This document shows positions 5,901-60,700 of a DNA stretch of 64,000 bases, piece by piece. Each line of letters begins with the position of its first letter. Position 1 is the first letter of the stretch. Under the pieces are notes generated by a model. It worked only from the letters and a program-made list of their open reading frames with translations, did not search any database and had not been told where the DNA came from. Origin of the DNA: Paenibacillus graminis. GTDB taxonomy: Bacteria; Bacillota; Bacilli; Paenibacillales; Paenibacillaceae. The DNA is taken from contig NZ_CP009287.1 in the NCBI RefSeq assembly GCF_000758705.1, positions 1,798,001 to 1,862,000 on the forward strand. Direction: 5' to 3'. The position numbers and the translations under genes are program-made.

Positions 5901-8900
5901 AAAAGGTACTGAAGACGGAGAAAGTGGGCATATTCAACCGCTTTTTTGATATCGGCGGCGACTCGGTGAAGGTCATTCATCTATGTAATGAATTAAAGAC
6001 CCGTTTGAATATGGAGGTCCCGGTTCAAACCATTTTTGACTATTCGACGATCCATGAATTTGTCAGTTACTGCAATGAAACAACGAAAAAAGCAAGCGGC
6101 GAAGCCCGGCAGCGGCTGCAACCCGAAGCACCTAAGGCTTTCCAGCCTCCAACCCTAGACTTCCAAGATACGGATGTGGCTATTATCGGGATGGCCGGCC
6201 GTTTTCCAGGGGCTGCTGACAAAGAACAGTTCTGGAGCAACCTGGTGAATGGGAAAGAAGCGATCAAATTTTACACCGACGAGGAATTAAAGGCGCTTGG
6301 AATTGACAGTGAGCTTTTGAACAATCCCAAGTATGTGAGGGCAAAAGGAAAGCTAGAGGACAGCGACTGCTTTGATGCTGATTTCTTCGGGTATACCGTT
6401 GCCGAAGCCAGGTGGATGGACCCGCAGATTCGCTTGCTCCATGAGTGTGCCTGGCATGCGCTGGAGGATGCCGGATATGAACCGGAGTCCTACCCTGGAG
6501 CAATCGGACTGTACATCGGATCTTCGTATAACATTTATTGGGTACCCGAGAACTTCAGCCCTTCCCTGTATGCTTCAGATCAGTATCAAATCTATAACAT
6601 GAACAGCAATTCGTTCGCTACGCTGATTGCCTATCGCATGAATCTGCGGGGACCGGCGATCACCGTCCAAACCGCCTGCTCCACCTCGCTGGTGGCCATT
6701 GACCGTGCCTACAAGGACTTGCTCTTTGGCGATTGTGACATTGCGGTTGCCGGAGGCGCTGCGGTTACGCTGCTTGATGAAATGGGTTATATCCACCAGG
6801 AAGGGATGGTCCTGTCCAAGGATGGGCATTGCAGAGCTTTTGAGAAAAAGGCATCAGGCACCGTGACCGGCAACGGAGTGGGGCTGGTCGTCCTGAAACG
6901 CCTCAAGAATGCCCTTGCCGACGGGGATCATATTTATTCCATTATCAAGTCCACTGCCGTGAATAACGATGGAAACCGTAAAGCGGGTTACTCCGCTCCA
7001 AGCGCAGAAGGACAAGCAGCGGTCATCCAGAAGGCCATTCAGCGTTCCGGCCTTGGCTCCGAACAGATTCATTATATTGAGGCGCACGGAACAGGGACGG
7101 TATTGGGTGATCCGGTCGAAATCGAAGGGCTCAAACGGGCTTTTAACACAACTAAGAAAAATTATTGCGGACTGGGCTCCGTCAAAACGAATATCGGACA
7201 TTTGGAAGCTGCCGCCGGAATCGCAGGGCTGATGAAAACGTCCATGTCCCTGCAAAAAAGAATGATTCCTGCTTCGCTCAACTGTGATGAGATCAATGCA
7301 CATATTGTATTGGAGGATTCCCCGTTTTATGTGAATACCCAGCTTCTTGATTTGCGAAATGAGGACAACTATCCGCTGCGGGCGGGTGTAAGCTCGTTTG
7401 GGCAAGGGGGCAGCAATGCGCATGTGATACTGGAGGAAGCACCGCAGGTGGACTCGGGTCCTGCCCATAGACGTTACGTCATTATGACCCTATCCGCTAA
7501 AACGGAGCCGGCGCTGAACCATTTGAAGGGAAAAGTAAGAGAGTCGTTCAAACGTAATCCCAGTGTGCATTTGGCTGATGCCGCGTATACGTTGAAGGTG
7601 GGGCGGAAGAGTTTTAGACATCGTTCTGCTTTTCTCTGTACAGAAACCAAAGAAGCCATAGATATTCTTACGGCGAAAGAGACAAGCAAAAGATGGGAGG
7701 CCGTGGTTTCGGAGCAGGCCCCATCCGTTGTATTCATGTTTTCGGGCCAAGGTGCAGAATATGTAAATATGGCTCTGGATCTTTATCGTCATGAGCCGGT
7801 TTTCCGGGACAAACTGAATGAATGCTTGACGGTTTTGCAGGAGATTTCCGGTTTGCGCTATCGGGATTTTTTATTCCCGGATGAGCGGGAGCAGCAGGCA
7901 GAGGGGCATATTCACAGACAGAGCGTCTCCCAGCCTCTTCATTTTGCGCTGGAATACGCTTTGGCATGGCTGCTGATGAATTGGCAGGTTGAGCCGCTGA
8001 GTATGATCGGGTACAGCATCGGAGAGTATGTCGCTGCGTGTCTGGCAGGTGTGTTTTCCTTGCGGGATGCCTTGTTTCTGACCTATCAGCGGGGAGTCCT
8101 TATGGAGAAGCTGCCTGAAGGGCTCATGATTACGGTTCCGCTGCAGGAGGAGGCATTGCTGCAAATGCTTCCATCCACTCTGTCGGTTGCCGCTGTTAAC
8201 GATGAGTCTTGTATTGTTTCTGGAAGCAAGGACAGTATTGCCGATTTTGAAGCTCGGCTCAAGAGCCAAAAAATCATCAGCATGCGATTGCAGATTTCAC
8301 ACGCGGGTCATTCCAAAATGCTCGATTCGATGGTAAGCGAATTCAGGGAATGTGTGATGAGTGTGACCTGTAATCCGGCGGCTATTCCTTTCGTATCCAG
8401 TGTAACCGGAGATGTCATCACACCCGAAGAGGCAGCCTCTCCGGAGCATTGGGTGCGTCATTTGCGGGAGCCTGTACGCTTTGCGGAAGGATTCAAGAAG
8501 CTTGCGTCGCAAGAGAATACCCTGTTCATCGAGATCGGCCCAGGGCGGAATCTATGCACGCTGGTTCAGCGCTTTATACAGCCTGACCGCAAGCAGAAGC
8601 TGCTCGATACCCTGCGGGCGGAGCGTAAAAAAACAGCGGATGACGAGTATCTGTTAAGGACGGCCGCGCAATTATGGGTATACGGCGTTCCTGTTGATTG
8701 GAGCCGCTTTTACAGCAATGAACAACGAAGAAGAGTTCCTTTGCCGGGCTACCCTTTTGAGAAAAAACGCTATTGGCTCCGGGATTTTCGCTATGCTGCG
8801 GGAAGCCCGGCCATTGAAGCGGCGGCAGGCCGGGACACTTATGGTGTGCAGGAAGCACCGGTGGAGTCCGAGGCAAGTCCGGTTCAAGCTGAGCGAAGTC

Positions 8901-11900
8901 CAATGAGCAGTGAAGCCGCCATGCTTGTCCAGATCACAACGGATATCATCGGGGGCACAGCTATTGGCGAAGATGATGATCTGTTCGAGCGGGGATTTGA
9001 TTCCCTGAAGGTGATCTCCCTGATCTCGAAGATTGCAGACGCCTTCCGCGTTCATTTAACCATGCATGAGGTGTTCCAAAACCCGACGATCAGGGAATTG
9101 CTGCCAGTGATCCAGAGGCAGGCACCGGTACAAGCCGTCACCATCCCGAAAGCGCCGGAAGCAGAGTATTATCCGGTTTCCTCCCAGCAGAAAAGGCTGT
9201 ATGCGCTGCAGCAATTCGATGAGGACAGCATCGCTTACAATATCCCCGGGGCATTTGTCTTGCGCGGCAAGCTGGACCCCGAACGGGTGGAAGCCGCGTG
9301 CGGCGGTCTGATCCGGCGGCATGAGGCGCTGCGGACCAGCTTTGCATTGATGGGACAAGCGCTGGTGCAACAGGTAGATCCCGATGCAGCGTTGGCCATT
9401 GAATACTCCGAACTGCCGGGGGCCGGAGTGGAAGAGACGCTGCAGGGCTTCGTGCAGCCGTTCCGGCTGGATCAGGCTCCGCTGCTGCGGATACGGCTGG
9501 TGCGTGTAGCGGACGAATGCCATGTGCTGCAGATTGATATGCACCATATCATCTCGGACGGGCTGTCCATTGAACTGCTGGTCCGGGATTTCCTGGCGTA
9601 TTACGAGGGACGGACGCTTGCGGAGCCCCGGATACAGTACAAGGACTACGCCGTATGGCAGCAGAACAGGGATTCGGCGTTCTGGCAAGAGGAACGGGCG
9701 TTTTGGCTGGAGCAATACAAAGACGGCTACGAGCTGCTGGATCTGCCAACCGACTTCCGGCGTCCGCCGCTCAAGCAGTTTGCCGGCTCGCTCCGCCCGT
9801 TTGCCTGGACCGGGGAAATCAGCGGCTCGCTGCAGGCGTTCTGCCAGACCCATCAGATTACGCCGTACATGCTGCTGCTGGGCTGCTTTACTATTCTGCT
9901 CTCGAAATACAGCGGGCAACAAGAAATCTGGGTAGGCACACCGGTCGGCGGCCGTGTTGGCGTGGATACGGAAGATACAGTGGGAGTCTTTGTCAACACG
10001 CTGGCCCTCCGCAGCCGCCCGGACGGAGCGAAGCCAGTGCTGGATTATTTGCAGGAAGTACGCGAGTATTGCCTGCACGCCTTTGACCACCAAGGGTATC
10101 CCTTCGAAGAGCTGGTGCAAGACATTGAGAAGGAGCGGGACGTCAGCCGCAATCCGCTCTTCGATACCATGTTCACCTGGGAGCAGCGGGACCGGAGCCG
10201 GCTGCACCTCTCCGGTCTCCAGGTGGAGCGCTGCGATTTCCACAGCGGCATTGCCAAGTTCGACCTGATGCTGCAGGCCTGGGAAGAACAGGGGGAAATG
10301 GGCTTTAACATCGAGTACGCCACCGCGCTGTTCAAGGACTCCACGATCCAGCGGATGGGGAGACATTATCAGCAGATCGTCAAGCAGGTTCTGCAGGCTC
10401 CCGGCCGGACGATCCGGGAGCTTAGCCTGCTCGGGCCAGAGGAAGCTGAGCAGATACAGTACGGATTCAATCAGACGGAGGCGGGGTATGACCTCAGTCA
10501 GAGCATCATCGCGCTGATCGAAGAACAAGCGCAGAAAAGGGGGGGCGAAACGGCCGTTGTCTGGGAAGGACAACGCCTGACCTACCGCGAGCTGAATGAG
10601 CGGGCCAACCAGGTCGCCCGCTTGCTGCGGGATCGGGGCTGCCAGCGGGAAGAAATCATCGGCCTCCTGGCGGAGCGCTCCCTGGCGATGATTATCGGCT
10701 TGCTGGGGATCGGGAAAGCGGGCTGTGCCTATCTCCCGCTGGACCCGGACTATCCGGCGGAACGGACCGGGTATTTGATCGAAGACAGCGGGCTGCGCCT
10801 CGTCTTAACCCAGACCGCCTTCGCGGGCCGGGTGGCTGCGCTGGGCGTAACCGCTGTGGATGTGGAAGAGGAAGCAAGCTATGCCGGATATGAACGGGAT
10901 AATGCTGCGCTGGACATCCGCCCTCATCATTTGGCCTATGTGCTCTACACCTCCGGTTCGACCGGCAAACCCAAAGGGGTCATGCTGACCCACGGGGGAC
11001 TGGCGAACCGTCTGCGCTGGATGGCGGAGAAATACGGGATGGATGAGCAGGAGGTCGTTCTGCAAAAGACCACGTATACCTTTGACGTATCGGTCTGGGA
11101 GCTGTTCCTCCCGCTGATGATCGGGGGAGTGGTCTGCCTGGCGAAGCCGGGCGGGGAGAAAGACCCGGATTATCTGTACCGGTTAATCCAAGAGCAGGGG
11201 ATAACGACGCTGCATTTCGTGCCTTCGATGCTGGCGGGTTTTGTGCATGCGCTGCCGGAGAAGGCGTCATTGGGGCAGCTGAGGCGCTGTATTTGCAGCG
11301 GGGAAGAGCTGACGCTTGAAGTGAAGGAGCGGTTTTTCCGCAGAGTCGAAGGGGTCGAACTGCATAACTTGTACGGACCCACTGAAGCGTCGATCGATGT
11401 CAGCTCCTATGAGGTACACCCGTCCGACGCTTCGATTCCAATCGGAAAGCCGGTGGCGAACACCCGCCTGTACATCGTATCCGAAGAAGGCAGGCTGGTG
11501 CCGGTGGGCATTCCGGGAGAGCTGTGCATCGGCGGCGTGCAGGTGGCGAAGGGGTACCTCAACCGTCCGGAGCTGACGGCGGAGAAGTTCAAGGCGCTGC
11601 CTGGACTGCCGGAAGAACGGCTGTATTTCACAGGGGACCTCGCCCGGTGGCGGGAAGACGGGAACATCGAGTATCTGGGGAGAAAGGATACCCAGATCAA
11701 GCTGCGGGGCTACCGGATCGAGCTGGGGGAGATCGAGTCCGCGATCCAGAAATATGACAGCCGGATCGAAACGGCTGTCGTGGTGAGCCAGGGGAGGCAG
11801 GCAGAAAGCCAAGCGCTCTGCGGCTATTTTACAGCCAGGGAGCAGATCGAAACGGGGGCGTTGAAGGAATATTTACGCCGGGAATTGCCGGCGTATATGG

Positions 11901-14900
11901 TTCCGGTCTTTTACATGCAATTGGATGCGCTCCCCCATACCTCCAGCGGGAAGGTTGACCGAAAGTCACTGGCGGAAGCGGCTGTAAGCCCTAGCAGCAA
12001 GGAGACGATGACAGAGGTTATCTCCAGTAAGGAAGGGCAAATGCTGGAGACCATTTTTAGAGAGACACTGGGCTGCGGGAATATTTCTCCGGCGGACAGC
12101 TTCTTTGAACTGGGCGGTAATTCGCTTGCGGCAATCGTGTTGAAAGCCAGAATATCCGAAGCTTTTCATGTGAATGTAACCGTCCTTGAGATTTTTGCAA
12201 ACCCGACGATCAGGGAATTGCTGCCAGTGATCCAGAGGCAGGCACCGGTACAAGCCGTCACCATCCCGAAAGCGCCGGAAGCAGAGTATTATCCGGTTTC
12301 CTCCCAGCAGAAAAGGCTGTATGCGCTGCAGCAATTCGATGAGGACAGCATCGCTTACAATATCCCCGGGGCATTTGTCTTGCGCGGCAAGCTGGACCCC
12401 GAACGGGTGGAAGCCGCGTGCGGCGGTCTGATCCGGCGGCATGAGGCGCTGAGGACAAGCTTTGCATTGATGGGACAAGCGCTGGTGCAAAAGGTAGATC
12501 CTGACGCAGCGTTGGCCATTGAATACTCCGAACTGCCGGGGGCCGGAGTGGAAGAGACGCTGCAGGGCTTCGTGCAGCCGTTCCGGCTGGATCAGGCTCC
12601 GCTGCTGCGGATACGGCTGGTGCGTGTAGCGGACGAATGCCATGTGCTGCAGATTGATATGCACCATATCATCTCGGACGGGCTGTCCATTGAACTGCTG
12701 GTCCGGGATTTCCTGGCGTATTACGAGGGACGGACGCTTGCGGAGCCCCGGATACAGTACAAGGACTACGCCGTCTGGCAGCAGAACAGGGATTCGGCGT
12801 TCTGGCAAGAGGAACGGGCGTTTTGGCTGGAGCAATACAAAGACGGCTACGAGATGCTGGATCTGCCAACCGACTTCCGGCGTCCGCCGCTCAAGCAGTT
12901 TGCCGGCTCGCTCCGCCCGTTTGCCTGGACCGGGGAAATCAGCGGCTCGCTGCAGGCGTTCTGCCAGACCCACCAGATTACGCCGTACATGCTGCTGCTG
13001 GGCTGCTTTACCATTTTGCTCTCGAAATACAGCGGGCAACAAGAGATCTGGGTAGGCACACCGGTGGGCGGCCGTGTTGGCGTGGATACGGAAGATACAG
13101 TGGGAGTCTTTGTCAACACGCTGGCCCTCCGCAGCCGCCCGGACGGAGCGAAGCCAGTGCTGGATTATTTGCAGGAAGTACGCGAGTATTGCCTGCACGC
13201 CTTTGACCACCAAGGGTATCCCTTCGAAGAGCTGGTGCAAGACATTGAGAAGGAGCGGGACGTCAGCCGCAATCCGCTCTTCGACACCATGTTCACCTGG
13301 GAGCAGCGGGACCGGAGCCGGCTGCACCTCTCCGGTCTCCAGGTGGAGCGCTGCGATTTCCACAGCGGCATTGCCAAGTTCGACCTGATGCTGCAGGCCT
13401 GGGAAGAACAGGGGGAAATGGGCTTTAACATCGAGTACGCCACCGCGCTGTTCAAGGACTCCACGATCCAGCGGATGGGGAGACATTATCAGCAGATCGT
13501 CAAGCAGGTTCTGCAGGCTCCCGGCCGGACGATCCGGGAGCTTAGCCTGCTCGGGCCAGAGGAAGCTGAGCAGATACAGTACGGATTCAATCAGACGGAG
13601 GCGGGGTATGACCTCAGTCAGAGCATCATCGCGCTGATCGAAGAACAAGCGCAGAAAAGGGGGGGCGAAACGGCCGTTGTCTGGGAAGGACAACGCCTGA
13701 CCTACCGCGAGCTGAATGAGCGGGCCAACCAGGTCGCCCGCTTGCTGCGGGATCGGGGCTGCCAGCGGGAAGAAATCATCGGCCTCCTGGCGGAGCGCTC
13801 CCTGGCGATGATTATCGGCTTGCTGGGGATCGGGAAAGCGGGCTGTGCCTATCTCCCGCTGGACCCGGACTATCCGGCGGAACGGACCGGGTATTTGATC
13901 GAAGACAGCGGGCTGCGCCTCGTCTTGACCCAGACCGCCTTCGCGGGCCGGGTGGCTGCGCTGGGCGTAACCGCTGTGGATGTGGAAGAGGAAGCAAGCT
14001 ATGCCGGATATGAACGGGATAATGCTGCGCTGGACATCCGCCCTCATCATTTGGCCTATGTGCTCTACACCTCCGGTTCGACCGGCAAACCCAAAGGGGT
14101 CATGCTGACCCACGGGGGACTGGCGAACCGTCTGCGCTGGATGGCGGAGAAATACGGGATGGATGAGCAGGAGGTCGTTCTGCAAAAGACCACGTATACC
14201 TTTGACGTATCGGTCTGGGAGCTGTTCCTCCCGCTGATGATCGGGGGAGTGGTCTGCCTGGCGAAGCCGGGCGGGGAGAAAGACCCGGATTATCTGTACC
14301 GGTTAATCCAAGAGCAGGGGATAACGACGCTGCATTTCGTGCCTTCGATGCTGGCGGGTTTTGTGCATGCGCTGCCGGAGAAGGCGTCATTGGGGCAGCT
14401 GAGGCGCTGTATTTGCAGCGGGGAAGAGCTGACGCTTGAAGTGAAGGAGCGGTTTTTCCGCAGAGTCGAAGGGGTCGAACTGCATAACTTGTACGGACCC
14501 ACTGAAGCGTCGATCGATGTCAGCTCCTATGAGGTACACCCGTCCGACGCTTCGATTCCAATCGGAAAGCCGGTGGCGAACACCCGCCTGTACATCGTAT
14601 CCGAAGAAGGCGGGCTGGTGCCGGTGGGCATTCCGGGAGAGCTGTGCATCGGCGGCGTGCAGGTGGCGAAGGGGTACCTCAACAATCCGGAGCTGACGGC
14701 GGAGAAGTTCAAGGCGCTGCCTGGACTGCCGGAAGAACGGCTGTATTTCACAGGGGACCTCGCCCGGTGGCGGGAAGACGGGAACATTGAGTATCTGGGG
14801 AGAAAAGATACCCAGATCAAGCTGCGGGGCTACCGGATCGAGCTGGGGGAGATCGAGTCCGCGATCCAGAAATACGACAGCCGGATCGAAACGGCTGTCG

Positions 14901-15475: not shown

Positions 15476-18400
15476 ACAAACAAACGGACTGGAGATTGCA
15501 GTCATTGGCATGTCGGCCAGGTTTCCGGGTGCAGCGGACGTTCATACCTTCTGGGATAATTTGGTGAACGGCAAAGAATCCATTACATTTTTCACTGCGG
15601 ACGAATTGCTGGAGAGCGGGCTTGAACCGGCCGCGGTGTCCCATCCCGGTTATGTCCGCGCTAAAGGCTATCTGGAGAACAGCGATCAGTTTGACGGTTC
15701 CTTCTTCAACTACTTGCCGCTGGAAGCCGAAGTGATGGACCCGCAGGTCCGCATCTTTCATGAATGTGTCTGGGAAGCGCTGGAGGATGCCGGTTATTGT
15801 GCCGGTACGTATCCGGGCCTGATCGGATTATATGCGGGGGCGGCGGGCAGCCTCTATTGGCAGGCGCTCTCCTATGTATCGGAAAGTGCCCGGTTGCTCG
15901 GTCCATTTACCGCGAACCAGTTCGCGAACAAGGATTATCTATCGACGCTGATTTCCCACCGCCTCAATCTAAAAGGGCCGAGTCTGACCATCAATACAGC
16001 CTGTTCAACCTCTCTTGTAACCATTCACCTTGCGGCTCAGGCGCTGCTGAACGGTGAATGTGATATTGCTCTGGCGGGCGGTGTGAGCATCACCATGCCG
16101 CTGAAATCCGGCTACCTGTATCAAGAGGGAATGATACTGTCGCCAGACGGACACTGCAAGGCGTTCGATGAGGAGGGACAAGGCTCTGTTCCGGGAAATG
16201 GGGCCGGGGTAGTAGTCCTGAAGCGATATGAGGAGGCTATCCAAGACGGAGATCATATTTATGCAGTAATCAAGGGGTCGGCGATCAATAACGACGGAAA
16301 CCGCAAGAGCGCCTTCACCGCCCCAAGCGTGGAAGGACAGGCCGAAGTCATACAAACGGCCCAGCAGCTGGCCGAGGTGTCGGCGGCTTCGATCCAATTT
16401 GTTGAGACGCACGGAACAGCCACGGTATTGGGGGACCCGATTGAGCTGGAGGCGTTAAAAGCCGCTTTTGGAAACAGTGCAGGTGTCTGCCGGCTTGGTT
16501 CGGTGAAGTCGAACATCGGCCATCTCGATGCGGCGGCAGGTGTCGCCGGATTTATCAAGGCAGCGCTCAGTTTACAGCACAAATTGCTGCCGCCTACTTT
16601 GCACTTCACCAAATTAAATTCAAAAATCAGTCTGGCGGATTCTCCCTTCGTGATAAATGCCAAGCTGTTCGATTTATCAGGCGCAGGCAGCACGCTCAGG
16701 GCCGGGGTCAGCTCCTTTGGGATCGGCGGCACGAATGCACATATCGTTCTGGAAGAAGCGCCCCCGCCGCCAAGGTCATCGAAGGGAAGAGATTCACAGC
16801 TCATTCTGATTTCAGCAAAAAGCAAAAGCGCTTTGGAGCAGCACAGCAGCAATCTGGCGGCTTATCTCCGTGACCATCCTGATGTGTCCTTGGCGGATTT
16901 GGCCTATACCCTGCAGGTCGGGAGAACGGATTTCGGGCACAGACAGTTTATCGTGGCAAACCATACGGGCGGGCTTTCGGAAATGCTGTCGCCGCTTGGC
17001 AAAGAGAAAGGAAAGCATTCACGGAAAATATTCACGAGTACCGTTGAACAGGAGAACAAGCCGATCGTATTTATGTTTCCGGGCCTAGGCAATCAGTACG
17101 TGGATATGGGCCTGGGGCTATATTGCACGGAGCCTCTTTTTAAGCAAGAGCTTGATAGATGTTTTGACTTGTTGGACCGCCGCTTGGATTTCTCCATGAA
17201 GGCCATTCTTTTCCCGCAGGAAGCACGGGAGGAAGCGATTGAACAGCTAAACCGGATTGATATCAATCAAATCGCGGTCTTTATCTTTGAGTATGCTCTT
17301 GGCAGGTATCTTATGGAGCTGGGGATCAAGCCCAAATATATGATTGGCTATAGCTTTGGAGAATTCGCCGCCGCTTGTCTGGCAGGCGTTTTTGAGTTGG
17401 AGGATGCCATCCGCGTGATTATCAAGAGGGGGCAGATGATTAAGGGGACGGAGGAAGGCGCTATGCTCAGCGTTCCGATGACGGAAGAAGAGCTGCGGCC
17501 TCTACTCCCGCATAACATCTCCTTAAGCATCGTGAATGGCCCTTCTTGCGTGGTAGGCGGAACCCGGACGGCAGTTGAACAGTTTGAGGAGCAACTGAAA
17601 GCATTGCGGCAGATCTGCATCCGCCTGGACACAGCTTATGCCCTTCATTCTGCGGTGATGGAACCAATCAGGGAAGCATTTGCGGAAGAAATGAAGCAAA
17701 TCCGTTTGTATCCGCCGCAGATTCCGTTTATTTCGAACATCAGCGGGAACTGGATTACCGATGAGGAAGCCACCGAACCAGCGTATTGGGGCAAGCAATT
17801 AACCGATTCGATCCGCTTTGCAGATGGCTTGCAGGAGATATTGAAGGATGAAGCGCTAACCTTCCTCGAAGTAGGACCGGACCGGAATTTAAGTGCGCTT
17901 TTGAGATACTTTGTGCACCGCGATTCGTCGCATACGGTCCTTAATCTTATTCGGAATCCGCAGGAACAAGTGGAGGATCAGAACTACCTGTATACAAGGT
18001 TGGGCCAGTTATGGGGAGCAGGACACAGCATTGAATGGATGAAGCTGTATGCCTATGAGACAAGAAAAAGGCTTTCTCTGCCGACCTATCCGTTTGAACG
18101 GCAAACCTATGGGCTGGAGGGCAGCCCGTTTGACATGCTGGAGGGTCAACAGAAGGGCAAGCATTCGCTCCTGCAAAAACAGCCGCATATGGAAGACTGG
18201 TTTTATCTCCCGCTCTGGCAGCAGAAGGAACTGCCGCTGGCGGCCAGGCTGCCGGGCGGGCAGAGCTGTCTTCTTTTTGCGAACCATGATTCCATCAGCA
18301 GGGAATTGCGGCAAGCGTTATTGAGCAGCGGGCACCGCGTAATTACGGTTTATTGCGGCCATGAATTTAGTATGAACAATGACCACGAATATACGATTCG

Positions 18401-20138: not shown

Positions 20139-20149
20139 AGGGAATTTGA

Positions 20150-20863
20150 ATGATGCATCTTTATATTGTCCGCCACGCGGAACCGGATTATGAAAATGAT
20201 ACCCTCACTGCTGCCGGAGAGCTTGAGGCAAAAGCACTGGCGCAATATCTGCAGGTTCAGGGAGCCGACTATATTTATTCATCGCCGATGGGCAGGGCGT
20301 TGAAGACGATGAGCTATACCTCCGAGCTGCTAGGGATAGAGCCGCGGACTGAGAATTGGTTAAGGGAGCTGACCGATTTATGGATTGAGAATTCTCCTTG
20401 GGGGTATATAGGGGTTTTTGATATTCCGGGTGAAGTAATCAGAAACGGAGACTCATTCCCGACTCATGAAACCTGGCATCAGCTTAATTATTACCAGGAG
20501 GTGCAGGCGAAAGAAAGAGTGGAGGAGATCCGCAGAAGCTCTGACCGGTTTTTGCTGCGCCATGGATATGAAAGAATGGACGGACGGTACTCATGCATCA
20601 ATCCGAGCCAGGATAAAATTGTGGTGTTTTGTCACAGAGCGATTGGTTTAACCTGGCTTGGCCATTTACTGGATATCCCGATTTCATTAATGTGGTCGGG
20701 ATTCTGGATGCCGCCCAGTTCAGTCACGACGGTTGTTCTGGAACAGCGGTCGGATCGCTGGGCAACGCCAAGATGCATTGGCTTTGGGGATACTTCGCAT
20801 ATATTCAAACATGATTTGATGTTGAAAGCCAAAGATATCCATAATGACTGTTTTGTTAAATAG
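20150..20863 (+). CDS. Histidine phosphatase family protein (phosphoglycerate mutase-like)
   Basis: 237 residues. The N-terminal VRHAE motif holds the nucleophile His9 next to Arg8, and a second catalytic histidine is at about 162 (VVFCHRAIG), the pattern of the PhoE/cobC branch of the superfamily. It sits between two PKS genes and just before a BtrH-like gene. Its RBS (GAAGGGAA) overlaps the preceding PKS stop, so it belongs to the operon. It could remove a phosphate from a phosphorylated intermediate or from a phosphorylated, self-protected product; there is no sequence evidence for which. ATG at 20153 is an equally placed alternative start. Confidence 0.8.
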   Translation: MMHLYIVRHAEPDYENDTLTAAGELEAKALAQYLQVQGADYIYSSPMGRALKTMSYTSELLGIEPRTENWLRELTDLWIENSPWGYIGVFDIPGEVIRNGDSFPTHETWHQLNYYQEVQAKERVEEIRRSSDRFLLRHGYERMDGRYSCINPSQDKIVVFCHRAIGLTWLGHLLDIPISLMWSGFWMPPSSVTTVVLEQRSDRWATPRCIGFGDTSHIFKHDLMLKAKDIHNDCFVK

Positions 20864-20893
20864 GCAGCTAACTAATAAACTCAAGGTGATTAC

Positions 20894-22480: not shown

Positions 22481-22537
22481 AATTAAAGCGCAGATGCAGA
22501 GCAGAGCAAAAAAAATGACGAAAAAACGAGGGTAATT

Positions 22538-29089: not shown

Positions 29090-29105
29090 ACAGCCAATCA
29101 ACTGC

Positions 29106-29112: not shown

Positions 29113-29121
29113 TGGGGTATC

Positions 29122-31773: not shown

Positions 31774-31783
31774 GGATGATACA

Positions 31784-43100: not shown

Positions 43101-43134
43101 GAGAGCCGAAGGATCAAGAAAGCGATGGTGTTAA

Positions 43135-50799: not shown

Positions 50800-53700
50800 C
50801 CGTAAAGAGATCAATGATCATATTTTACAGTTGTTAAAATCAGGAAACCTGAATCAGGAAATGGCTGTAGCCATTCTGGAAAAGGTCAACCGCTCCTCAG
50901 AGGTGAAGCGGCAGGATATTGCCGTCATCGGGATCGCCTGCCGTGTTCCCGGAGCCAATACCCCCCGGCAGTTTTGGGGGAATTTGCTGGGGAAGATCAA
51001 CAGCATCGGAGCGTTTCCGGAGGAACGCCTGCAGGACCTCTCCCCGTTTATCCCGGAATTGGAGGAGATGCTTGCACAGTCCAATCATCAAGCAGGCTAC
51101 TTGGAGCAGATCGCCCGCTTTGACCATCCGTTTTTTCGGATCAGCGAGAAGGAAGCCATGGCGATGGAGCCCTATCAAAGACTGTTTCTGGAGACGGCAT
51201 ACCACGCGATGGAAGACGCAGGGTATGGCGGAGATCAACTGAAGCATTCGAACACAGGCATATTTGTAGGGATGGAAACGGCTTACCAGTCCCACTATCG
51301 CGCTCTGCTCGAACATGAGGATATTTCTTCGTTGACGGGTTCTTTGGTAGGTCTGTTAGCCAACCGGCTTTCCTATTTTCTGGACCTCCGGGGACCCGCC
51401 CTTGTGGTAAACACAGCTTGCTCCTCCGGGCTGGTCGCATTGCACCAGGCCTGCCTGGCCTTGGCGAACAAAGAATGCGAAACGGCACTGGTTGGCGGTG
51501 TCAACCTGATGGTTATTCCGCAAGCCGCAGGGAAATTAGATGATCTGGAGTCCTCCCAGGGAAAGGTGAAGGCGTTCGACAAGAATGCCGACGGGACGAT
51601 TTGGAGCGAAGGAATCACAGCCCTGCTTATTAAGCCGTTAGAGAAGGCGTTGAAGGACCGGGACCCCGTCTATGCCGTCATTAAGGCTAGCGGAGTTAAC
51701 GCCGACGGGGCCTCCAATGGCTTAACCGCTCCAAATCCGGAGGCTGAGACAGGGCTGTTCATCCGCACCTGGGAGAAAGCCAAGATCGATCCGCTCTCGA
51801 TTTCATATGTGGAAGCCCACGGTACAGGTACACTGCTTGGGGATTCCATCGAATTGCAGGCGATAAACGATGCATTTAAAAAATACACGGATACCCCTCA
51901 TATTTGCGGCATTGGTTCGGTCAAAACCAATATTGGACATACAGTGGCTGCCTCAGGCTTAGCATCATTGCTCAAAGTCATATTGTCGTTGCAACATAAA
52001 AAAATCCCTGCGTCCTTGAACTATGAGTCCCCGAATCCGTTTATTGATGCCGAGCACTCTGCCATCTATATAAATACGGAGGTGAAAGACTGGGAGCGAA
52101 AAGATACGCCGCTGCGGGCCGGCATCAATTCCTTCGGCTTCAGCGGTACGAACTGCCACGTAGTGGTGGAGGAAGCCCCGGAGATGAAGCGTCAAGAAGC
52201 GGAAGGTTCGCCTCCGGTCCATTTTTTAACCATGTCCGCCGGATCAACAGCGGGCCTAGGCCGATTAATCCAGGCGTATTATGCCTTTTTGCAAGCCCAT
52301 GATTCCATTGATCTCGAAGATCTTTGCTATACGGCCAATACCGGCAGAGTTCAAGCTGACAGCAGGGCTGCGTTCGTTTTTGCCACCAGAGACGAGTTAA
52401 TGAAGCAGTTGGCAAATGCGGATGTAACCCGAACCGGCGTATCCGGCGAAGATGGAATCTATATAAGCGGAAATGTCCAGCCGGAAGATGTCTTAGCTGC
52501 TGCAGATGAGTTCGAGATTAACCAGCTGGCTAAGCGGTATATCTGCGGGTTATCCGTCGATTGGGCAGCTCTATACCCGCAAAAGCGGCAGAAGCTGAAT
52601 TTGCCCGGTTATCCCTTTGAAAAGATCAGGCTATGGCCGGCCGCAGCTGCCAAATCCGGTTTTGCAGCCCGGAAACAGCCTAATATGCATGAGACGTCTA
52701 ACCCGGATGAAGAAGCGCCGCAGTCCCGGCTCTACCACAATATTCAATGGTTGCCCGTTAACACAGAACCCCCTCACCCGCTGCCTACGAGCGAAGAGGC
52801 AGTCCTGGTGTTCACCGATCCGGCAGACTGGGGCTGGGCGCTGGCAGATGAAATCTCCCGGCACACCCCCCATGTCATTCATGCCCGGCTTGCCGGAGCT
52901 TACCACAGGGAGAGTCCGGCATTATACAGTGTGAGCGGCACGGAAGCAGACTTCTGCCAATTGATAACCGATATAGGCTCCGTGAAGATAAGCAAAATAC
53001 TTTGGGCAACCGGAATGGATGACTGTGATATCGGGGACAGCCGCGATGTTGAGGAGCAATTGACCCATACATTATACCCGCTGCTGTGTCTGACGAAGGC
53101 ATGGGTCATGCAGGAAATGAACCTGACAGAGGTTATCCTGGCCGGGAAGAACGGTCAAAGGGTTATCCCCTCAGACGAGAAGATTTATCCATACTTCGCA
53201 TCGCTTTACGGGATGGGGAAAGTCATTCGCGAGGAATACAGCGGACTCCGCTGCAGATGCATTGATTGCGATGAATCGACACCGGTCCGTGAACTCGCCG
53301 AAGAAGTATTTAGACAATCAGACTACTACCAAATTGCGATTCGGGAAGGAAGGAAATATTACCCGCAATTAACACCTGTTGAGCTGGACGCTTTCGGCCC
53401 TTCTGCGGCAGGCTTTAAGGAGCAAGGGGTATATGTCATCACCGGGGGAACGGGCGGAATTGGCTTGCAGCTGGCACAGCATATTGCCCTGCAGCACCAA
53501 GTGAAGCTTGTATTAATCAGCCGTTCCGGGCTGCCAGCGCGCGAAACCTGGGAAGAGCTGATCCAATCGGCCCAGGAGCCGGACGGAAGAGTGGCGCTGA
53601 TCCGCAGCCTGAAGCATCTGGAGCGCAACGGCTCACAACTATATACATACAGTGCGGACGTTGCCAGGCTGGATGAATTAGCGCCAGTAATCAGCAGGAT

Positions 53701-56700
53701 CACAAGCCAGCTTGGGAAAATAGACGGAATCATTCACGCAGCAGGCCTTCCAGGCAGCGGTTTGCTGGTTGAGAAGGACGGGCCATCGTTTGCCGCCTCC
53801 ATTGCTGCCAAAATTAAAGGAACCCATTATCTGCATCAGTTAACCCGTGAGAACCCGCCCGATTTTCTTCTGTTGTTTTCATCCATAGCTTCTGTAGTGG
53901 GGGGCATATATTTAGGAGATTATGTGGCGGGGAACAGCTATCTGGACGCGTTTTCCGGTATGCCAACCGAACATACCCGGCTGATTTCCATCAACTGGAC
54001 GACATGGATGGACACCGGTATGGCGAAGAATACAGGCGGGAACCTGGATGTTGCCTTTCGCTCGATTTTGCCCCGCCACGCGCTCCATGCCTTTGATCAG
54101 ATTCTAGGCAAAAAAATAAATAACATTGTGGTCGGCAGCATCCAGTTCAATAATGACCTGTTCTGGAACCGTCCTTTGCCGGTTGAACTGGCTCCTGCGA
54201 TTAGAGCGCAGATCAAGTTTCCTGAAGCTGAAATCGATGTCCGGCTAACCGGAAGGGCAGATGATGCCTATACGGAGATCGAGCGGCAATTGGCCCAGAT
54301 CTGGGGCAACCTGTTCCAGATGCCAAGCATCGATATTCAAGATAATTTCTATGAGCTTGGCGGCACGTCCATCATGGGCATCAAAATGGCGAACCGGATC
54401 AATGAGCAGTACCGTGTAGCCATGACCATTCAGGATATATTCACCCATCTGACGGTATCATCCTTGGGGAATCTGGTGGAGCAAAAGCTGAGTACCAGAA
54501 CTGAAGCCGGGGCGGTGACCAAGCAGGAAGTGGAACCCGCCCAAACAAGTATGCCTTTGTCACATGCGCAAAGGCGTATTTGGTTTTTGCAAAAAATGAA
54601 TCCCGACCTGGTGGCGTACAATTTGCCCTTTATCCGCTTCTTTGACATGGACATAGACGGGGAACTGCTGCAGCAGGCGGCTGCCTTCCTGGCCGGCAGA
54701 CATCTCATGATGCGCACGAAATATGTATTGAAGGACGGAAACCCGGTGCAGGAGGTGCTGCCGGCGTATGTGCCGGCCGTTCAATTTATCGATGCCGCCG
54801 GGCAAAATGATCCGGAGTTATTCGTGAGGATGAATATACACCAGCAAAAAATGAAACCGTTCAATCTCGAAATGCCGCCTTATAGAATCTATCTGTACAC
54901 CATCAGCGCTGAGCGGGCTTGCCTCTACATCAATTTCCACCACATCCTCACAGACGGCTGGAGCATTGATATTTACTACAGAGAATTGTTTAGCCTATAC
55001 CAATCCTTCCTGCATCGGCAGCCGCCCAGACTGCCGGAGATGAGGTACGATTACTTTGATTGGATTCTAGAACAACAAGCATGGGAGGAGAGCGAAGCCT
55101 TTGTGGAGCATGAACAATTCTGGCTGAAGGAGCTTTCCAAGCCCTTGCCGGTTTTGAACTTGCCTTCAGACCACAAAGCGCCTGCCGTTCAGACATATAG
55201 AGGCAGCTTCCACAAATTCACAATTTGCGGCGAGCTGTACAGAAAGCTGAAGGCGCATCTTGAAACTCAGCAGATTACAGCCAACAACTTTCTCTTGAGC
55301 GCGTATTTTCTGTTATTGCACAACCTGTCGCAGGAGCAGGATATTATTATTGGCGTGCCTACCTCAGGAAGGAATGAACAGAAATGGGAGAGAGTCGCGG
55401 GCATATTCATTAATACCCTGTGCATCCGCGTTCAGTTTCAGGGAATTACCACATTCATGGAATTACAGGATACCGTGAAGCACAAGGTATGGTCGGCTAT
55501 TGATAAAGCCCAATATCCGTTTGATTTATTGGTGGAAAAAGTAAATCCGGAACGGGATTTGTCCAGAAATCCCATTTACAATGTTCTCTTCCAGTTTTAT
55601 GATAAATTATATTTGGAAAATGAAGGAATCAGCCCGTTTGAATTAAGCTGCCTGGCCCAAGAAACCGATCAGCAAATTGAGATTTCGTTCGAGTACAATT
55701 CTGATATGTATACAGAAGGCACCATCTCCCGGTTTGCAGGATACTTCCTGAATATCATCGGACAGGTTGTAGACAAGCCGGAATGCCTCCTCCAAGAGGT
55801 TACCTTGTTGAGACATCAGGAAGAAACCGAGCTGTTAAGCCGTTTTCAAGGGGAGCAGGTGGAGCTGGAGGACGACCAGACGGTTCACAGACGTTTTGAA
55901 GCGCAGGTGCAAAAAAATCCGGAAGCCATCGCTTTAGTTGATGAGGAAGGGCAAATGACCTTCCGGGAAGTGAACGAGCAGGCCAATCAGCTTGCCTGGA
56001 TGCTGATCGATAACGGGGTTCAGCGAAATACCCCGGTCGGGATTTTTGTAGACAGGAGCTGCTGGACCGTCATCGGTATATTGGCGGTTCTGAAGGCGGG
56101 CGGAGCCTATGTACCGCTTGATCCGGGTTATCCTGAAGACAGGCTCGCTTATATTCTTGCGCACAGCGGCGCCAGATTGCTGCTGACAGAAAACCGCTAT
56201 CTCCAGAACGTGGCAGCATTCGCGCATGATGGAGGGATTACGGTCATCAATCTGAGTCCGGTCAAGGAACAGACGCCTGTAAGCCAGATGTACTTAACGG
56301 ATTATGAGGAAGCGCTGTCCAGGGTGAATCCGTCTACCGGAAGCCAAGGAGCGGACTGGATGTATATCATGTACACCTCAGGCTCTACCGGCAAGCCCAA
56401 AGGCGTATTGGTTACCCATTCCAACGTCTTGAACTTCGTTGAATGGAGCATTGGAGAATTGCAACTTCAGCCCAGGGATGCACTTCTGCTGGTAACCTCA
56501 ATCAGCTTCGATATTTCGGTGTTCGAGATATTCGCTGCGTTGTTAAGCGGCGCCCGGTTATGCATTGCAGCTAAGGAACATTTGAGGGATACCGAAAGCC
56601 TGCTGGCTTATATGGAAGCCAAGGGGATCACCATCTGGCATTCTGTTCCCAGCCTGATGGTTCAGCTTATGACATTTATCGGGAACAATCAGGGCCGGTA

Positions 56701-57766
56701 CCGCCAATCGCCGGTATTACAGCAGATCAGGCACTTAATGCTTGGCGGGGAGGCATGGAGTACTTCACTGGCCCAAAGCCTGCGCGCGACCTTTCCGCAA
56801 GCGGAGATTCGCAATATGTATGGCCCGACGGAGGCAACAATATGGATCTCCAGCTATAAACTGGGTGCGGAGATCGATGAGTCGCATCCGGTCATGCTTA
56901 TCGGCAGGCCGATTGCCAACAATCAGCTAATCATCCTGGATCAGTATGGCAACGTTTGTCCGCAGGGAGTCACCGGGGAAATTTATATCGCCGGGAACAA
57001 TGTGACCCAAGGATATTATAGCGATGAACAAAAGACGAAAATGGCCTTTATCCCGCAGAACAATGGGCAGATCTATTACAGGACGGGCGATTTGGGAAGA
57101 TATTTGCCGGAAGGGAATGTGGAGTTCGCCGGGAGAAGAGACCAATTGGTCAAAGTAAGGGGATACCGTATTGAGTTAGGAGAAATTGAGCAGGCCTTAC
57201 AAGAGCTGACGAATCTGCAGCAGATCGCTGTAACGACTGTGAAGGATGGGGAAACCAACAAAATTATCTGCCTTTATACCGGCGGCCCGCCGGTTCCGCA
57301 GAACCAGTTAAAGGAGGCTGTAAGGCAAAGGCTTCCGGAATATATGATTCCCGCCCAATTTTTTCATGTGGACCAATTCTTGTTCACGCCAAACGGAAAA
57401 ATGGACTGGAGGTCCATGGAGGCCCTTATTGCCGGAGAAACTGCGGGCAGCATGGATGCAGCGGGAATCCGAAACGAAGTGGACAAGAAGCTGTCCGGGA
57501 TGTGGACAAAACTGCTGGGCATCCCTGTTGCCGGCATTCAGGATAACTTTTTTGATATTGGCGGGAACTCTTTATTGATCGTACAGATGCAAGGGATGAT
57601 CCAGCAGGAATTCTTCCAGGACATCCCGATGATGGATCTGTTCAAATATACGTCGATTGAAAAGATATCGGATTACCTGCAGGAGCATACGGTAAAAGTA
57701 TCGAGTGTGGAAACAGGCCAAAAAAGAGCGGACATGAGAAAAAGACTGCGCAACATGAGAGGTTAA
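50786..57766 (+). CDS. AT-less hybrid PKS-NRPS: KS-KR-ACP-C-A-T
   Basis: 2326 residues, overlapping the previous gene by 14 bases. Three consecutive ATG codons begin the frame; the third (50792) is best spaced from GGGGG, so the start could be 6 bases later. An N-terminal docking helix (EINDHILQLLKSGNLNQE) pairs with the preceding C-terminus. KS: C212, H345, H385; no AT; KR: TGGTGGIG from 886, Y1046, N1050; ACP: S1195; C: HHILTDG from 1385; A: YTSGSTGKPKG near 1863, code DIFHMGMIWK, which I cannot match to a known specificity; T: S2262. It would add a hydroxylated C2 unit and one amino acid. It ends with a basic tail (KRADMRKRLRNMRG) like the other T-terminal proteins. Confidence 0.91.
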   Translation: MMMINRKEINDHILQLLKSGNLNQEMAVAILEKVNRSSEVKRQDIAVIGIACRVPGANTPRQFWGNLLGKINSIGAFPEERLQDLSPFIPELEEMLAQSNHQAGYLEQIARFDHPFFRISEKEAMAMEPYQRLFLETAYHAMEDAGYGGDQLKHSNTGIFVGMETAYQSHYRALLEHEDISSLTGSLVGLLANRLSYFLDLRGPALVVNTACSSGLVALHQACLALANKECETALVGGVNLMVIPQAAGKLDDLESSQGKVKAFDKNADGTIWSEGITALLIKPLEKALKDRDPVYAVIKASGVNADGASNGLTAPNPEAETGLFIRTWEKAKIDPLSISYVEAHGTGTLLGDSIELQAINDAFKKYTDTPHICGIGSVKTNIGHTVAASGLASLLKVILSLQHKKIPASLNYESPNPFIDAEHSAIYINTEVKDWERKDTPLRAGINSFGFSGTNCHVVVEEAPEMKRQEAEGSPPVHFLTMSAGSTAGLGRLIQAYYAFLQAHDSIDLEDLCYTANTGRVQADSRAAFVFATRDELMKQLANADVTRTGVSGEDGIYISGNVQPEDVLAAADEFEINQLAKRYICGLSVDWAALYPQKRQKLNLPGYPFEKIRLWPAAAAKSGFAARKQPNMHETSNPDEEAPQSRLYHNIQWLPVNTEPPHPLPTSEEAVLVFTDPADWGWALADEISRHTPHVIHARLAGAYHRESPALYSVSGTEADFCQLITDIGSVKISKILWATGMDDCDIGDSRDVEEQLTHTLYPLLCLTKAWVMQEMNLTEVILAGKNGQRVIPSDEKIYPYFASLYGMGKVIREEYSGLRCRCIDCDESTPVRELAEEVFRQSDYYQIAIREGRKYYPQLTPVELDAFGPSAAGFKEQGVYVITGGTGGIGLQLAQHIALQHQVKLVLISRSGLPARETWEELIQSAQEPDGRVALIRSLKHLERNGSQLYTYSADVARLDELAPVISRITSQLGKIDGIIHAAGLPGSGLLVEKDGPSFAASIAAKIKGTHYLHQLTRENPPDFLLLFSSIASVVGGIYLGDYVAGNSYLDAFSGMPTEHTRLISINWTTWMDTGMAKNTGGNLDVAFRSILPRHALHAFDQILGKKINNIVVGSIQFNNDLFWNRPLPVELAPAIRAQIKFPEAEIDVRLTGRADDAYTEIERQLAQIWGNLFQMPSIDIQDNFYELGGTSIMGIKMANRINEQYRVAMTIQDIFTHLTVSSLGNLVEQKLSTRTEAGAVTKQEVEPAQTSMPLSHAQRRIWFLQKMNPDLVAYNLPFIRFFDMDIDGELLQQAAAFLAGRHLMMRTKYVLKDGNPVQEVLPAYVPAVQFIDAAGQNDPELFVRMNIHQQKMKPFNLEMPPYRIYLYTISAERACLYINFHHILTDGWSIDIYYRELFSLYQSFLHRQPPRLPEMRYDYFDWILEQQAWEESEAFVEHEQFWLKELSKPLPVLNLPSDHKAPAVQTYRGSFHKFTICGELYRKLKAHLETQQITANNFLLSAYFLLLHNLSQEQDIIIGVPTSGRNEQKWERVAGIFINTLCIRVQFQGITTFMELQDTVKHKVWSAIDKAQYPFDLLVEKVNPERDLSRNPIYNVLFQFYDKLYLENEGISPFELSCLAQETDQQIEISFEYNSDMYTEGTISRFAGYFLNIIGQVVDKPECLLQEVTLLRHQEETELLSRFQGEQVELEDDQTVHRRFEAQVQKNPEAIALVDEEGQMTFREVNEQANQLAWMLIDNGVQRNTPVGIFVDRSCWTVIGILAVLKAGGAYVPLDPGYPEDRLAYILAHSGARLLLTENRYLQNVAAFAHDGGITVINLSPVKEQTPVSQMYLTDYEEALSRVNPSTGSQGADWMYIMYTSGSTGKPKGVLVTHSNVLNFVEWSIGELQLQPRDALLLVTSISFDISVFEIFAALLSGARLCIAAKEHLRDTESLLAYMEAKGITIWHSVPSLMVQLMTFIGNNQGRYRQSPVLQQIRHLMLGGEAWSTSLAQSLRATFPQAEIRNMYGPTEATIWISSYKLGAEIDESHPVMLIGRPIANNQLIILDQYGNVCPQGVTGEIYIAGNNVTQGYYSDEQKTKMAFIPQNNGQIYYRTGDLGRYLPEGNVEFAGRRDQLVKVRGYRIELGEIEQALQELTNLQQIAVTTVKDGETNKIICLYTGGPPVPQNQLKEAVRQRLPEYMIPAQFFHVDQFLFTPNGKMDWRSMEALIAGETAGSMDAAGIRNEVDKKLSGMWTKLLGIPVAGIQDNFFDIGGNSLLIVQMQGMIQQEFFQDIPMMDLFKYTSIEKISDYLQEHTVKVSSVETGQKRADMRKRLRNMRG

Positions 57767-57794
57767 CATCCGCCCATGTGAAAGGAACATGACC

Positions 57795-60700
57795 ATGGAA
57801 AATGATCTTAGTCTTAACTCGAAGATTGCTGTCATCGGAATGGCTGGAAGGTTCCCGCAAGCAGGGGATATCGGAGAATTCTGGCGTAACCTGGTTCAAG
57901 GTGCGGAAGGGATTCAATTCTTCTCCAAGGAGGAATTGAGGCAGGCGGGGGTGAGTCCGGCCCTGCTCGAGAAACCCGAGTATGTACCGGCTTCCGGCCG
58001 TTTACAAGACATCGGGGAGTTTGATGCCGCTTTTTTTCAATACACACCAAGAGAATCGGAAATCATGGACCCGCAGCAGCGGTTATTTCTGGAGTGCGCC
58101 TGGAATGCAATAGAGGATGCCGGGCATAGCCTGTCCCAATACGAAGGAGCGGTTGGCGTATTTGCAGGGGTAGGTGCGAATAAATATGTAACCCATATTA
58201 TGAGCCATCCTGAGCTGCTGCATATCTTGGATCACCGGCAAATTGAGGCGGCCAATGACAAGGACTTTCTCACCACACGCGTTTCCTACAAATTGAATGC
58301 GACCGGCCCCAGTTTTGCAGTACAGACCGCTTGTTCTTCTTCCCTCGTGAGTGTGCATATAGCATGCCAAAGCTTATTGAATGGCGAGTGCGATATGGCA
58401 CTGGCCGGAGGCGTTTCCATTCAATTTTTAGACAAGAGCGGATATCTCTATAAAGCGGGCGGCATCGAATCGCCTGACGGACACTGCCGCTGCTTCGATG
58501 AAAAGGCAGAAGGAACCGTGTTCGGCGATGGGGTTGGTGTGGTTGTGCTCAAAAGGCTGGAGGACGCCGCTAGAGACAATGATCATATTTATGCGGTGAT
58601 TGGCGGTTCAGCCATCGGCAATGACGGGGCGGGCAAGATCGGGTTCACGGCTCCGGGATTAGATGGACAGGTACAAGTGATTTCGGAAGCTATGGAAGTG
58701 GCCGGAGTGACGCCTAACGATATAGGGTATATCGAGGCGCACGGCACCGGCACCAAATTGGGTGATCAGGTAGAGATTGCGGCCCTTAAGGAAGTGTTCA
58801 AAGGCCGGACTCGGGAAGAGGCGTGTTACATTGGATCCGTTAAGTCCAGCATTGGGCATTTGAACACCGCCTCAGGCATCGCCGGCTTAATCAAAACGGT
58901 TCTGAGCATCCAGCAGAATCTCATCCCGCCGCTCCTGCATCTCCGCAGCCCTAATCCGCAGTTGGAATTAGAGGACAGCCCGTTCCGGCTGAACCGGAGT
59001 CCGGTGACATGGGCTGCGGGTGAGCAGAAAAGGGTGGCGGGCGTCAGTTCTTTTGGCATCGGAGGCACCAATGCCCATGTCATTGTCGAACAAGCCCCAG
59101 ACCTTTGCCTGGAACCAAACGGACAAGAGTGGCATCTGCTGCCGTTCTCGGGAAAAACGGAACAGGCCCGGCAACGAAACCTTGAAAATCTGCAGGCGTA
59201 CCTCCAAGCCCATCCAGAGGTTGATCTGTCGCGGGTGTCATCTACCCTTCAGACGGGAAGGGAGCATTTTGACTTTCGCGGATTTCTTCTTTGCGGCAAT
59301 CATGGAGGGCACCGGGTGTTCTGTCCGGAACACCGGGCGGTAAAGCAGGAGAAATCCGTTGTTTTCTTTTTCTCTTTGGAACAGGCTCCCCCCGTAACAA
59401 TGGTTCAGGAATTGTACAGGCAGGAGCCGTTCTTTCGAAAAACAATGGATGAAAGCTTTCAAATGGTGGAACGGATGTTTCAGCTTGATCTCACCAAGCG
59501 GATATCCCCTGAAGCGGATACTATTCAAGGGCAAGCGGAATTCCCCTCCAGCCAAGAGCCCTATGGGCCGCTTCTGTCTTTCATAGCGGGTTATTCCCTG
59601 GCACAGCTCTGGCAGCACTGGGGCGTTTTCCCGCAAGCGGTGGCCGGGGATAGAATCGGCGAATATGTCGGCGCTTGCCTGGCGAATGTTTTTTCACGTG
59701 AGGCTGCCTTGAAATTATTATTTTTCCAAGGGGATGTTTCGGAAGGCATTGTGTTGGGACAACCAGCCCTCCCGGTTCTGTCGAATGTATCGCATACCTG
59801 GTTAGATGAAGAACAGGCGGTTTCTCTCACCTATTGGAAAGAGGTCTTGAACCAGCCAAACAATCTGCTGGCTTGCGTACCAGAGCTTGCCGCACTCCAA
59901 AATCCGGTTTTTATCAAGATCGGTCCGGGAAACCATCGTCTCGATAGCCTGGACCTAACCATCCAAGAAAAGAATCCAACCGCCCTATTGCTGGATTCAC
60001 TTCCACGCGAAGCAGACCACGAGGCGGCTGACAAGGTTCTTCAGGACGCCTTGGGGAGGTTGTGGCTGGCAAACATTGAGGTCTGCTGGAAGAACGTTCA
60101 ATCCGGCAGGCAGACCAGAAGAATTCCGCTGCCTACCTATGCTTTTGACAGAGAAACTTACTGGATTGACAGAGCGGCTGCCCAAGAACAGGACGGATTT
60201 GCGGCAGATAAACTCCACGAAGAACCATTGCAGGCAGTGGGCAGGGGAGACCATTTCGTTCAGGTTGGCGGCACACGCTATATGCTGGATTCGTCTCAAC
60301 TGCAGGAAATTCAAGAGCTGCTTGCCAGCTTCTCCCCGGACACTGCCGGATCATTTCCGGATTCACAGGAGAAGCGGAAGGAGTACATCGTTCCCAGACT
60401 GTGCAGCCTCTTGGAGGAGTTATTGGGAAAAAGACCGATCAGCAGCCAGGACGACTTTTTCGAATGTGGGGGCGACTCTGTAACAGCGATCCAGTTTGCC
60501 TCCCGTGCGAAGGATTTCGGCATCGTGTTTTCTTCGGAGCTGCTTTTTGAATACCCGACGATAGAGCAATTATCGGATAAGCTCCTGGAGCAGCCGGCAG
60601 CCTCCCTGCAAGAAGAAGAGCCTATGCCGGAACAACGGGCGGGCATTCATTATTTTGATGTGGCTGCATCCGATCAGAGCCTGTTGGCGGAGGTCTTGCC

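Follow-up and report, generated by a model that had tools for sequence, protein, structure and literature searches.

Assembly lines that join acyltransferase (AT) domains built into polyketide synthase (PKS) modules (cis-ATs) with ATs acting in trans are already known. In zwittermicin A biosynthesis, ZmaA-AT takes hydroxymalonyl tethered to an acyl carrier protein (ACP); the description of this enzyme gives its signature as GYSFG / MCM / GAAH and proposes that hydrophobic residues at the RxR site mark ATs for ACP-tethered extenders (PMC4207774). The kirromycin pathway, like the one reported here, combines cis-AT and trans-AT PKS modules, nonribosomal peptide synthetase (NRPS) modules and discrete ATs, but its description assigns it a single cis-AT PKS protein and does not mention AT remnants (PMC5818483). 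Here we report an NRPS-PKS gene cluster of Paenibacillus graminis in which intact, gutted and absent ATs occur along one line, an arrangement that is a new variant of the hybrid theme. We have analysed a stretch of 64,000 nucleotides (the window; positions 1798001-1862000 of the 7.17-Mb single-contig genome) together with its flanks, 20 kb on the upstream and 110 kb on the downstream side. Coordinates are given in window numbering, and the assembly-line domains and extender-cassette genes located in the window below all lie on the forward (+) strand.

Pfam scans revealed eight ketosynthase (KS) modules in the window, two with an intact AT, three with a shortened AT and three without AT. The same-strand biosynthetic genes span from about coordinate -8997 to about 135000, and the whole cluster of ~140 kb holds 16 KS modules, with three intact ATs, five AT remnants and eight AT-less modules. 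One intact AT, two remnants, five AT-less KS and a discrete AT are found beyond the window. A phmmer comparison with the KS of open reading frame (ORF) 15468, ORFs being named by their first position, split the 16 KS into eight scoring 414-941 bits (ORFs 2936, 15468, 22538, 31784, 57789, 67542, 76753 and 81044) and eight scoring 252-297 bits (ORF 43135 twice, 50786, 90567, 95381, 100164, 108136 and 112806). All low-scoring modules were AT-less; an intact AT with GYSxGE was present in three of the eight high-scoring ones (2936, 15468 and 81044), and a remnant in the other five. Over the whole genome, seven PF00698 matches passed the Pfam cut-off; two more fell short of it, both of them remnants. 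A single line unites intact cis-ATs with AT-less modules and a discrete AT in this genome, and likewise in the orthologous clusters.

The two ATs of the window that a preliminary description had judged intact were confirmed by PF00698 as well as by their motifs. In ORF 2936-15475 the match covered residues 1599-1882 (profile 1-280 of 319; GYSIGE), and in ORF 15468-20138 residues 534-840 (profile 1-307 of 319; GYSFGE). The three shortened ATs were also found where that description had placed them, with both the nucleophile Ser and the catalytic His columns lost. Remnant 1 (24116-24763, ORF 22538-29089, GTGTGA) carries Gly at the Ser position and its catalytic-His column is deleted, whereas remnant 2 (33347-33850, ORF 31784-42295, GRGKSQ), also with Gly, is the most reduced. 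Remnant 3 (59352-59993, ORF 57789-62042) has 84-86 residues including the catalytic His excised. The loss of its nucleophile motif, GDRIGE, was upheld, with the refinement that Arg occupies the Ser position (Trp in the orthologues shown) and Asp replaces the preceding His or Tyr. PF00698 scored below its 32.7-bit cut-off in ORFs 57789 (22.8 bits) and 22538 (20.9 bits), and was not listed for ORF 31784 in the Pfam scan.

Profile alignment of all five remnants to 26 intact AT sequences placed Gly at the nucleophile position in ORFs 22538, 31784 and 76753, Arg in 57789 and Lys in 67542; the aligned orthologues had no Ser there either. The catalytic-His column was deleted in four of the five and occupied by Thr in ORF 67542. 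In total 93-154 residues were lost, with differing deletion boundaries. The distance from the KS end to the LPTYxF motif was 451-457 residues in intact modules and 362, 310 and 362 residues in the window remnants, so the fall in AT length noted earlier, from slightly different cuts, was reproduced. The match of the ORF 57789 remnant to ZmaA-AT (PDB) was split (residues 95-227 and 314-443), omitting 86 residues that cover His297, the catalytic His of ZmaA-AT (PMC4207774). No aligned compensating Ser-His dyad was present in the profile alignment. Over six genomes an invariant His persisted in ORF 57789 (H610) and in ORF 67542 (H594, H634 and H676), and none in the other three remnants; hence, no conserved dyad is possible inside these three. 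The five remnants lack both the GxSxG nucleophile and the small-subdomain catalytic His of a competent AT. The one remnant modelled, remnant 3, was predicted to adopt an AT fold minus the small subdomain in a model whose alignment contained intact ATs.

The AT-less modules of the window have a KS of a different type. Neither ORF 43135-50799 (KS at 43246-44499 and 47038-48279) nor ORF 50786-57766 (KS at 50903-52159) had an AT match in the Pfam scan, and motif and orthologue comparison placed a linker without AT after each KS (44500-45099, 48280-48849 and 52160-52660). In agreement with the trans-AT-style docking first described for them, 41 and 45 residues precede the first AVIG motif in ORFs 43135 and 50786, vs. 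9-13 in the four proteins of the window with a cis-type KS at their start. The cis-type KS of the window, also assigned by Pfam and KS tree, lie at 6170-7423 (the intact-AT module of ORF 2936-15475), 15492-16742 (ORF 15468-20138), 22565-23818 (ORF 22538-29089), 31805-33058 (ORF 31784-42295) and 57822-59078 (ORF 57789-62042).

We have built a KS tree of 65 rows, with references from 16 cis and 16 trans proteins hand-picked among database matches; one cis reference was dropped (no KS over 350 residues), and each trans protein contributed at most two KS. The reference labels reflect the presence or absence of PF00698, that is, Pfam content and not biochemistry. All eight cis-type KS clustered with 15 reference KS from AT-bearing proteins (support 100/100). 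The 32 reference KS from AT-less proteins were divided: 20 joined all eight AT-less KS of the line in a second clade (100/99), and 12 fell outside both clades. The KS of the line do not therefore group in a single cis clade, and ORFs 43135 and 50786 combine absence of AT with a trans-clade KS, as expected of trans-AT modules.

The preliminary description had seen no discrete AT and had argued that malonyl must come from an AT in trans. The need for such an enzyme stood, and the search of the flanking genome located a candidate 25 kb downstream of the window, within the gene cluster. This discrete AT (89372-90649, contig 1887372-1888649, same strand) has 425 residues, GHSLGE and a PF00698 score of 130 bits; that it performs the loading is our proposal. 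It was present in all six orthologous clusters fetched, although in the G052 copy, which is broken into many frames, only residues 132-425 align. The broken frames in G052 may reflect either sequencing errors or decay of the cluster. Among the best 120 homologues listed, most of them without a name, those of similar length with a name were S-malonyltransferases or malonyl transacylases. In 398 genomes drawn from the class, the discrete AT was found at E <= 1e-150 in four, our own and three of one other genus, which the protein names suggest to be Brevibacillus. The motif sets were GHSLG / ISI / APFH for the discrete AT and GHSLG / RAI / GPFH for the genome's FabD (C1:3358275). The genome also encodes a second discrete AT (C1:789357), with a GHSxGE motif like FabD. 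The open frame of this second enzyme, annotated at contig 789357-790193, likewise has 425 residues, with GHSLGE and GSFH, and adjoins an NRPS-like piece.

The arrangement is conserved well beyond the genome analysed. Most cluster genes were kept in order in the Paenibacillus genomes G047, G054, G029 and G052, some accessory genes being unlisted in some of them. A further genome, G446, entered the analysis as a match only. In the orthologues of G047, G054 and G029 all five remnants, like the intact ATs, are found again at near-equal lengths, cluster proteins being mostly 84-97% identical, and remnant alignments within Paenibacillus show 0-1 gap per pair. In this comparison ORFs 108136, 112806 and 126195 of G054 align only in part; in G029 a contig break divides the first PKS gene, so that the comparison of the first intact AT leaves this genome out, and the fetched contig ends within ORF 108136, with the last AT-less module outside view. 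Two of the three genomes of the other genus that carry the discrete AT, G370 and G251, were compared, and both have the full pattern of three intact ATs, five remnants and eight AT-less modules in the same places, with identities of mostly 60-84%. Between our genome and G370, remnant lengths differ by 0-6 residues, and identity reaches 79-85% for the KS of cis-type modules, 69-76% for intact ATs and 80% for the discrete AT. Since the pattern recurs in both genera, the arrangement predates their split, or a transfer between them, and is stably held.

Ratios of nonsynonymous to synonymous substitution rates (dN/dS) were computed over our genome, G047, G054 and G029, or over three genomes in the case of ORF 2936. 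The remnants gave 0.26-0.40, with codon-bootstrap intervals running from 0.19 to 0.54; the KS of cis-type modules gave 0.03-0.12, intact ATs 0.12-0.19, the discrete AT 0.07, the linkers flanking the remnants 0.14-0.57 and those after the three trans-type KS of the window 0.23-0.28. The remnants are under purifying selection, looser than that of the enzymes, and are not junk.

The intact ATs resemble ZmaA-AT and lie next to genes for an unusual extender unit. AT 1 (7721-8605; GYSIG / ISM / HAGH) and AT 2 (17055-17945; GYSFG / ICI / YALH) have ZmaA-AT as best match by far; the third, in ORF 81044, reads GYSLG / VCT / KVIH. At the RxR site all three are hydrophobic in character, with no basic residue, the third residue of VCT being polar. 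The three, from our genome and from G370, form with ZmaA-AT a clade (100/99) apart from 21 references (of 22 chosen; P0013, under the minimum length of 260, was dropped), ZmaA-AT being its one characterised member. A 3-hydroxyacyl-CoA dehydrogenase is encoded directly upstream of the window (-1226 to -345), followed by an FkbH-type haloacid dehalogenase-family (HAD) protein (1-726, starting 308 bases before the window; 97% identical to its G047 orthologue, which matches TIGR01686 at 268 bits with a cut-off of 147), a discrete ACP (766-1017; PF00550, 33 bits; also in the orthologous clusters), an S-adenosylmethionine (SAM) methyltransferase (1027-1722; Methyltransf_23/25/11) and an acyl-CoA dehydrogenase-type oxidase (1773-2939; PF00441/PF02771). 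Gene sets of this kind yield hydroxymalonyl-ACP, or methoxymalonyl-ACP when O-methylation is included; alternatively, the methyltransferase may act in tailoring. Judging from these sequences, the intact ATs may accept hydroxymalonyl- or methoxymalonyl-ACP.

We consider it probable that the cluster encodes a stable hybrid cis/trans-AT NRPS-PKS line that is not in transition. Because the remnants recur with near-equal lengths in two genera and are under purifying selection, this state is old. The discrete AT would supply malonyl to the ACPs in all 13 modules that lack a working AT; a review cites 6-deoxyerythronolide B synthase (DEBS) as an in vitro precedent for AT-null cis modules being loaded by trans-ATs (PMC6164871). 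The three intact ATs would have survived as loaders of the ACP-tethered hydroxymalonyl or methoxymalonyl unit made by the upstream cassette, which the discrete AT could not supply. The gutted ATs may persist as structural spacers that hold the KS-AT linker and the post-AT linker, and perhaps also as docking surfaces. We are less certain that discrete-AT loading, a special extender and a scaffold role are jointly true than we are of the overall reading. Several observations weigh against it. Remnants evolve faster than intact ATs (39-50% vs. 69-76% identity to G370), and their dN/dS falls inside the range of the flanking linkers of the same modules, so that a role beyond that of a spacer is not shown. 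The AT-like fold of remnant 3 is partly imposed, given the intact ATs in its alignment. GYSxG is not decisive alone, the reference P0013 having GYSLG with HAFH. Finally, the RxR site of the discrete AT (ISI) is hydrophobic, like that of the aminomalonyl-ACP-loading ZmaF (IAI) and unlike that of FabD (RAI), so its specificity for malonyl-CoA is not certain.

The preliminary description had regarded the line as caught midway between cis-AT and trans-AT logic, with decaying domains. The unequal reduction of the remnants (cores of 168-217 residues), their faster evolution and a remnant 3 that is more AT-like in Brevibacillus-type genomes (AT pieces of 74+40 and 73+34 bits vs. 36+20 here) would suit ATs that are being lost now, but the same remnants in three Paenibacillus orthologues and in two genomes of another genus, the purifying selection and the near absence of gaps within Paenibacillus make such a transition highly improbable, and the midway reading was rejected on the recurrence of the remnants in both genera. 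The AT-dead modules might also receive malonyl from FabD, from the second discrete AT or from an intact cis-AT acting across modules: all these enzymes exist with GHSxGE or GYSxGE motifs, and the cluster's discrete AT lacks a basic residue at its RxR site. Since that discrete AT gene lies inside the cluster and travels with it in the six fetched orthologous clusters, and the intact cis-ATs seem tailored to ACP-tethered extenders, we hold this supply to be unlikely. In a further possibility, the discrete AT would load an aminomalonyl-type ACP-tethered unit onto a few modules, as ZmaF and ClbG do, with malonyl coming from FabD. The hydrophobic ISI fits this, as does APFH, which resembles the GPFH of ZmaF, although FabD has GPFH here too; the GHSLG motif (GYSLG in ZmaF) and the malonyl-transferring named homologues speak for malonyl instead, and an aminomalonyl role seems very unlikely, no search aimed at an aminomalonyl cassette having been made.

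As to how the stable hybrid line arose, the trees differ. In the KS tree, a single clade of remnant modules (one Brevibacillus orthologue included) was rejected by the approximately unbiased test (p-AU 0.000136), the remnant module of ORF 31784 being sister to the intact one of ORF 15468 (99/98). A single clade of the three intact modules was also rejected (p-AU 0.0259), and intact plus remnant modules as one clade against the references were neither shown nor rejected (p-AU 0.0855). In the AT-region tree, with 17 references, a single remnant clade was not rejected (p-AU 0.315), although long branches were flagged and meet there. Thus, one remnant that arose once and then multiplied, through duplication of its module or through recombination, is kept as a rival on account of the AT-region tree; with the KS tree and the differing deletion boundaries against it, and allowing that recombination can blur KS trees, we regard it as somewhat unlikely. 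On present sequence comparisons we favour several independent AT losses, not calling them shown because the KS tree rejects a single clade and the AT-region tree does not. The fuller scenario, in which ATs of one line were independently inactivated several times by cuts into the His-bearing small subdomain and loss of Ser, the large subdomain and the two linkers being kept by selection as passive scaffold or as landing site for an AT acting in trans, and the substrate deciding that only ATs for ACP-tethered units survived, is put forward as a tentative possibility, and a doubtful one as a whole.

Several neighbouring genes deserve mention. Outside the window, a C-A-PCP-C NRPS (-8997 to -4489) precedes a fusion of a beta-lactamase-family peptidase with an ABC exporter of cyclic-peptide type (-4473 to -1348); the two resemble the prodrug start and activation pair of zwittermicin or colibactin. 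A histidine-phosphatase-like gene (20150-20863) and a BtrH_N-like gene (20894-22480), both named from Pfam, are present in G054 and G029 and not listed for G047 or G052; in the Brevibacillus-type genomes only the BtrH_N-like one is listed (46%). A transglutaminase-like protein (42288-43100) is kept in all six fetched orthologous clusters (73-93%). A type II dehydroquinase (62039-62488; over cut-off; unlisted for G047, G029 and G052) occurs with, outside the window, a phosphatase near a family associated with 3-amino-5-hydroxybenzoic acid (AHBA) synthesis (76078-76734), a Gfo/Idh-type oxidoreductase (118692-119774), a ROK kinase (119771-120715) and a DegT-type aminotransferase (120643-121893), none of these four reaching the cut-off of its best NCBIfam model. 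The genes look like an aminoshikimate/AHBA-type pathway, the product being a guess. An 805-residue ABC-ATPase protein (62506-63999, gene to 64923) is UvrA-like by eye, its in-window part matching ABC_tran at 35 bits and SMC_N weakly, and possibly provides self-resistance to a DNA-binding product.

The evolution of trans-AT lines from cis-AT ones is a standing question in the polyketide field, and exchanging ATs is among the main tools of engineering. The eight cis-type modules of this line provide matched cases, including one pair with sister KS and an intact vs. a gutted AT, and point to a clear rule of AT survival that can be put to the test. Natural ATs with the catalytic part deleted and the scaffold kept could be a blueprint for trans-loadable modules with intact KS-linker architecture. 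If the scenario of repeated, independent inactivation is true, losing an AT would be a way of passing from cis to trans loading that can be taken repeatedly, is governed by substrate and has become fixed in two genera.

Literature searches yielded no named product for the cluster and, among the open-access papers covered, no account of a line with five gutted ATs; the zwittermicin A line is not known to contain such a set. 'Zwittermycin A-like' trans-AT PKS/NRPS clusters have been reported from Brevibacillus, with no product detected and the ATs not discussed (PMC10753013); the cluster so named is probably the orthologue found in G251 and G370. The 'AT-docking' regions of leinamycin-type lines are, like the remnants, non-catalytic post-KS regions, proposed to receive a discrete AT (PMC6164871); unlike them, the remnants follow a cis-type KS, and in the modelled one most of the AT scaffold is predicted to remain. 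In the hybrid line for colibactin, a discrete AT, ClbG, reportedly serves several of the PKS-bearing proteins, but with aminomalonyl and, in these accounts, without mention of an FkbH-type cassette (PMC5923317, PMC10924459), and a prodrug peptidase is a further likeness (PMC9889268). Zwittermicin A biosynthesis shares with the present line ATs of the ZmaA-AT type, the union of cis and discrete ATs and, presumably, ACP-tethered extenders (PMC4207774, PMC6164871). There, as described, the discrete ZmaF loads aminomalonyl and ZmaK-AT takes malonyl-CoA, whereas here the division of labour would be reversed.

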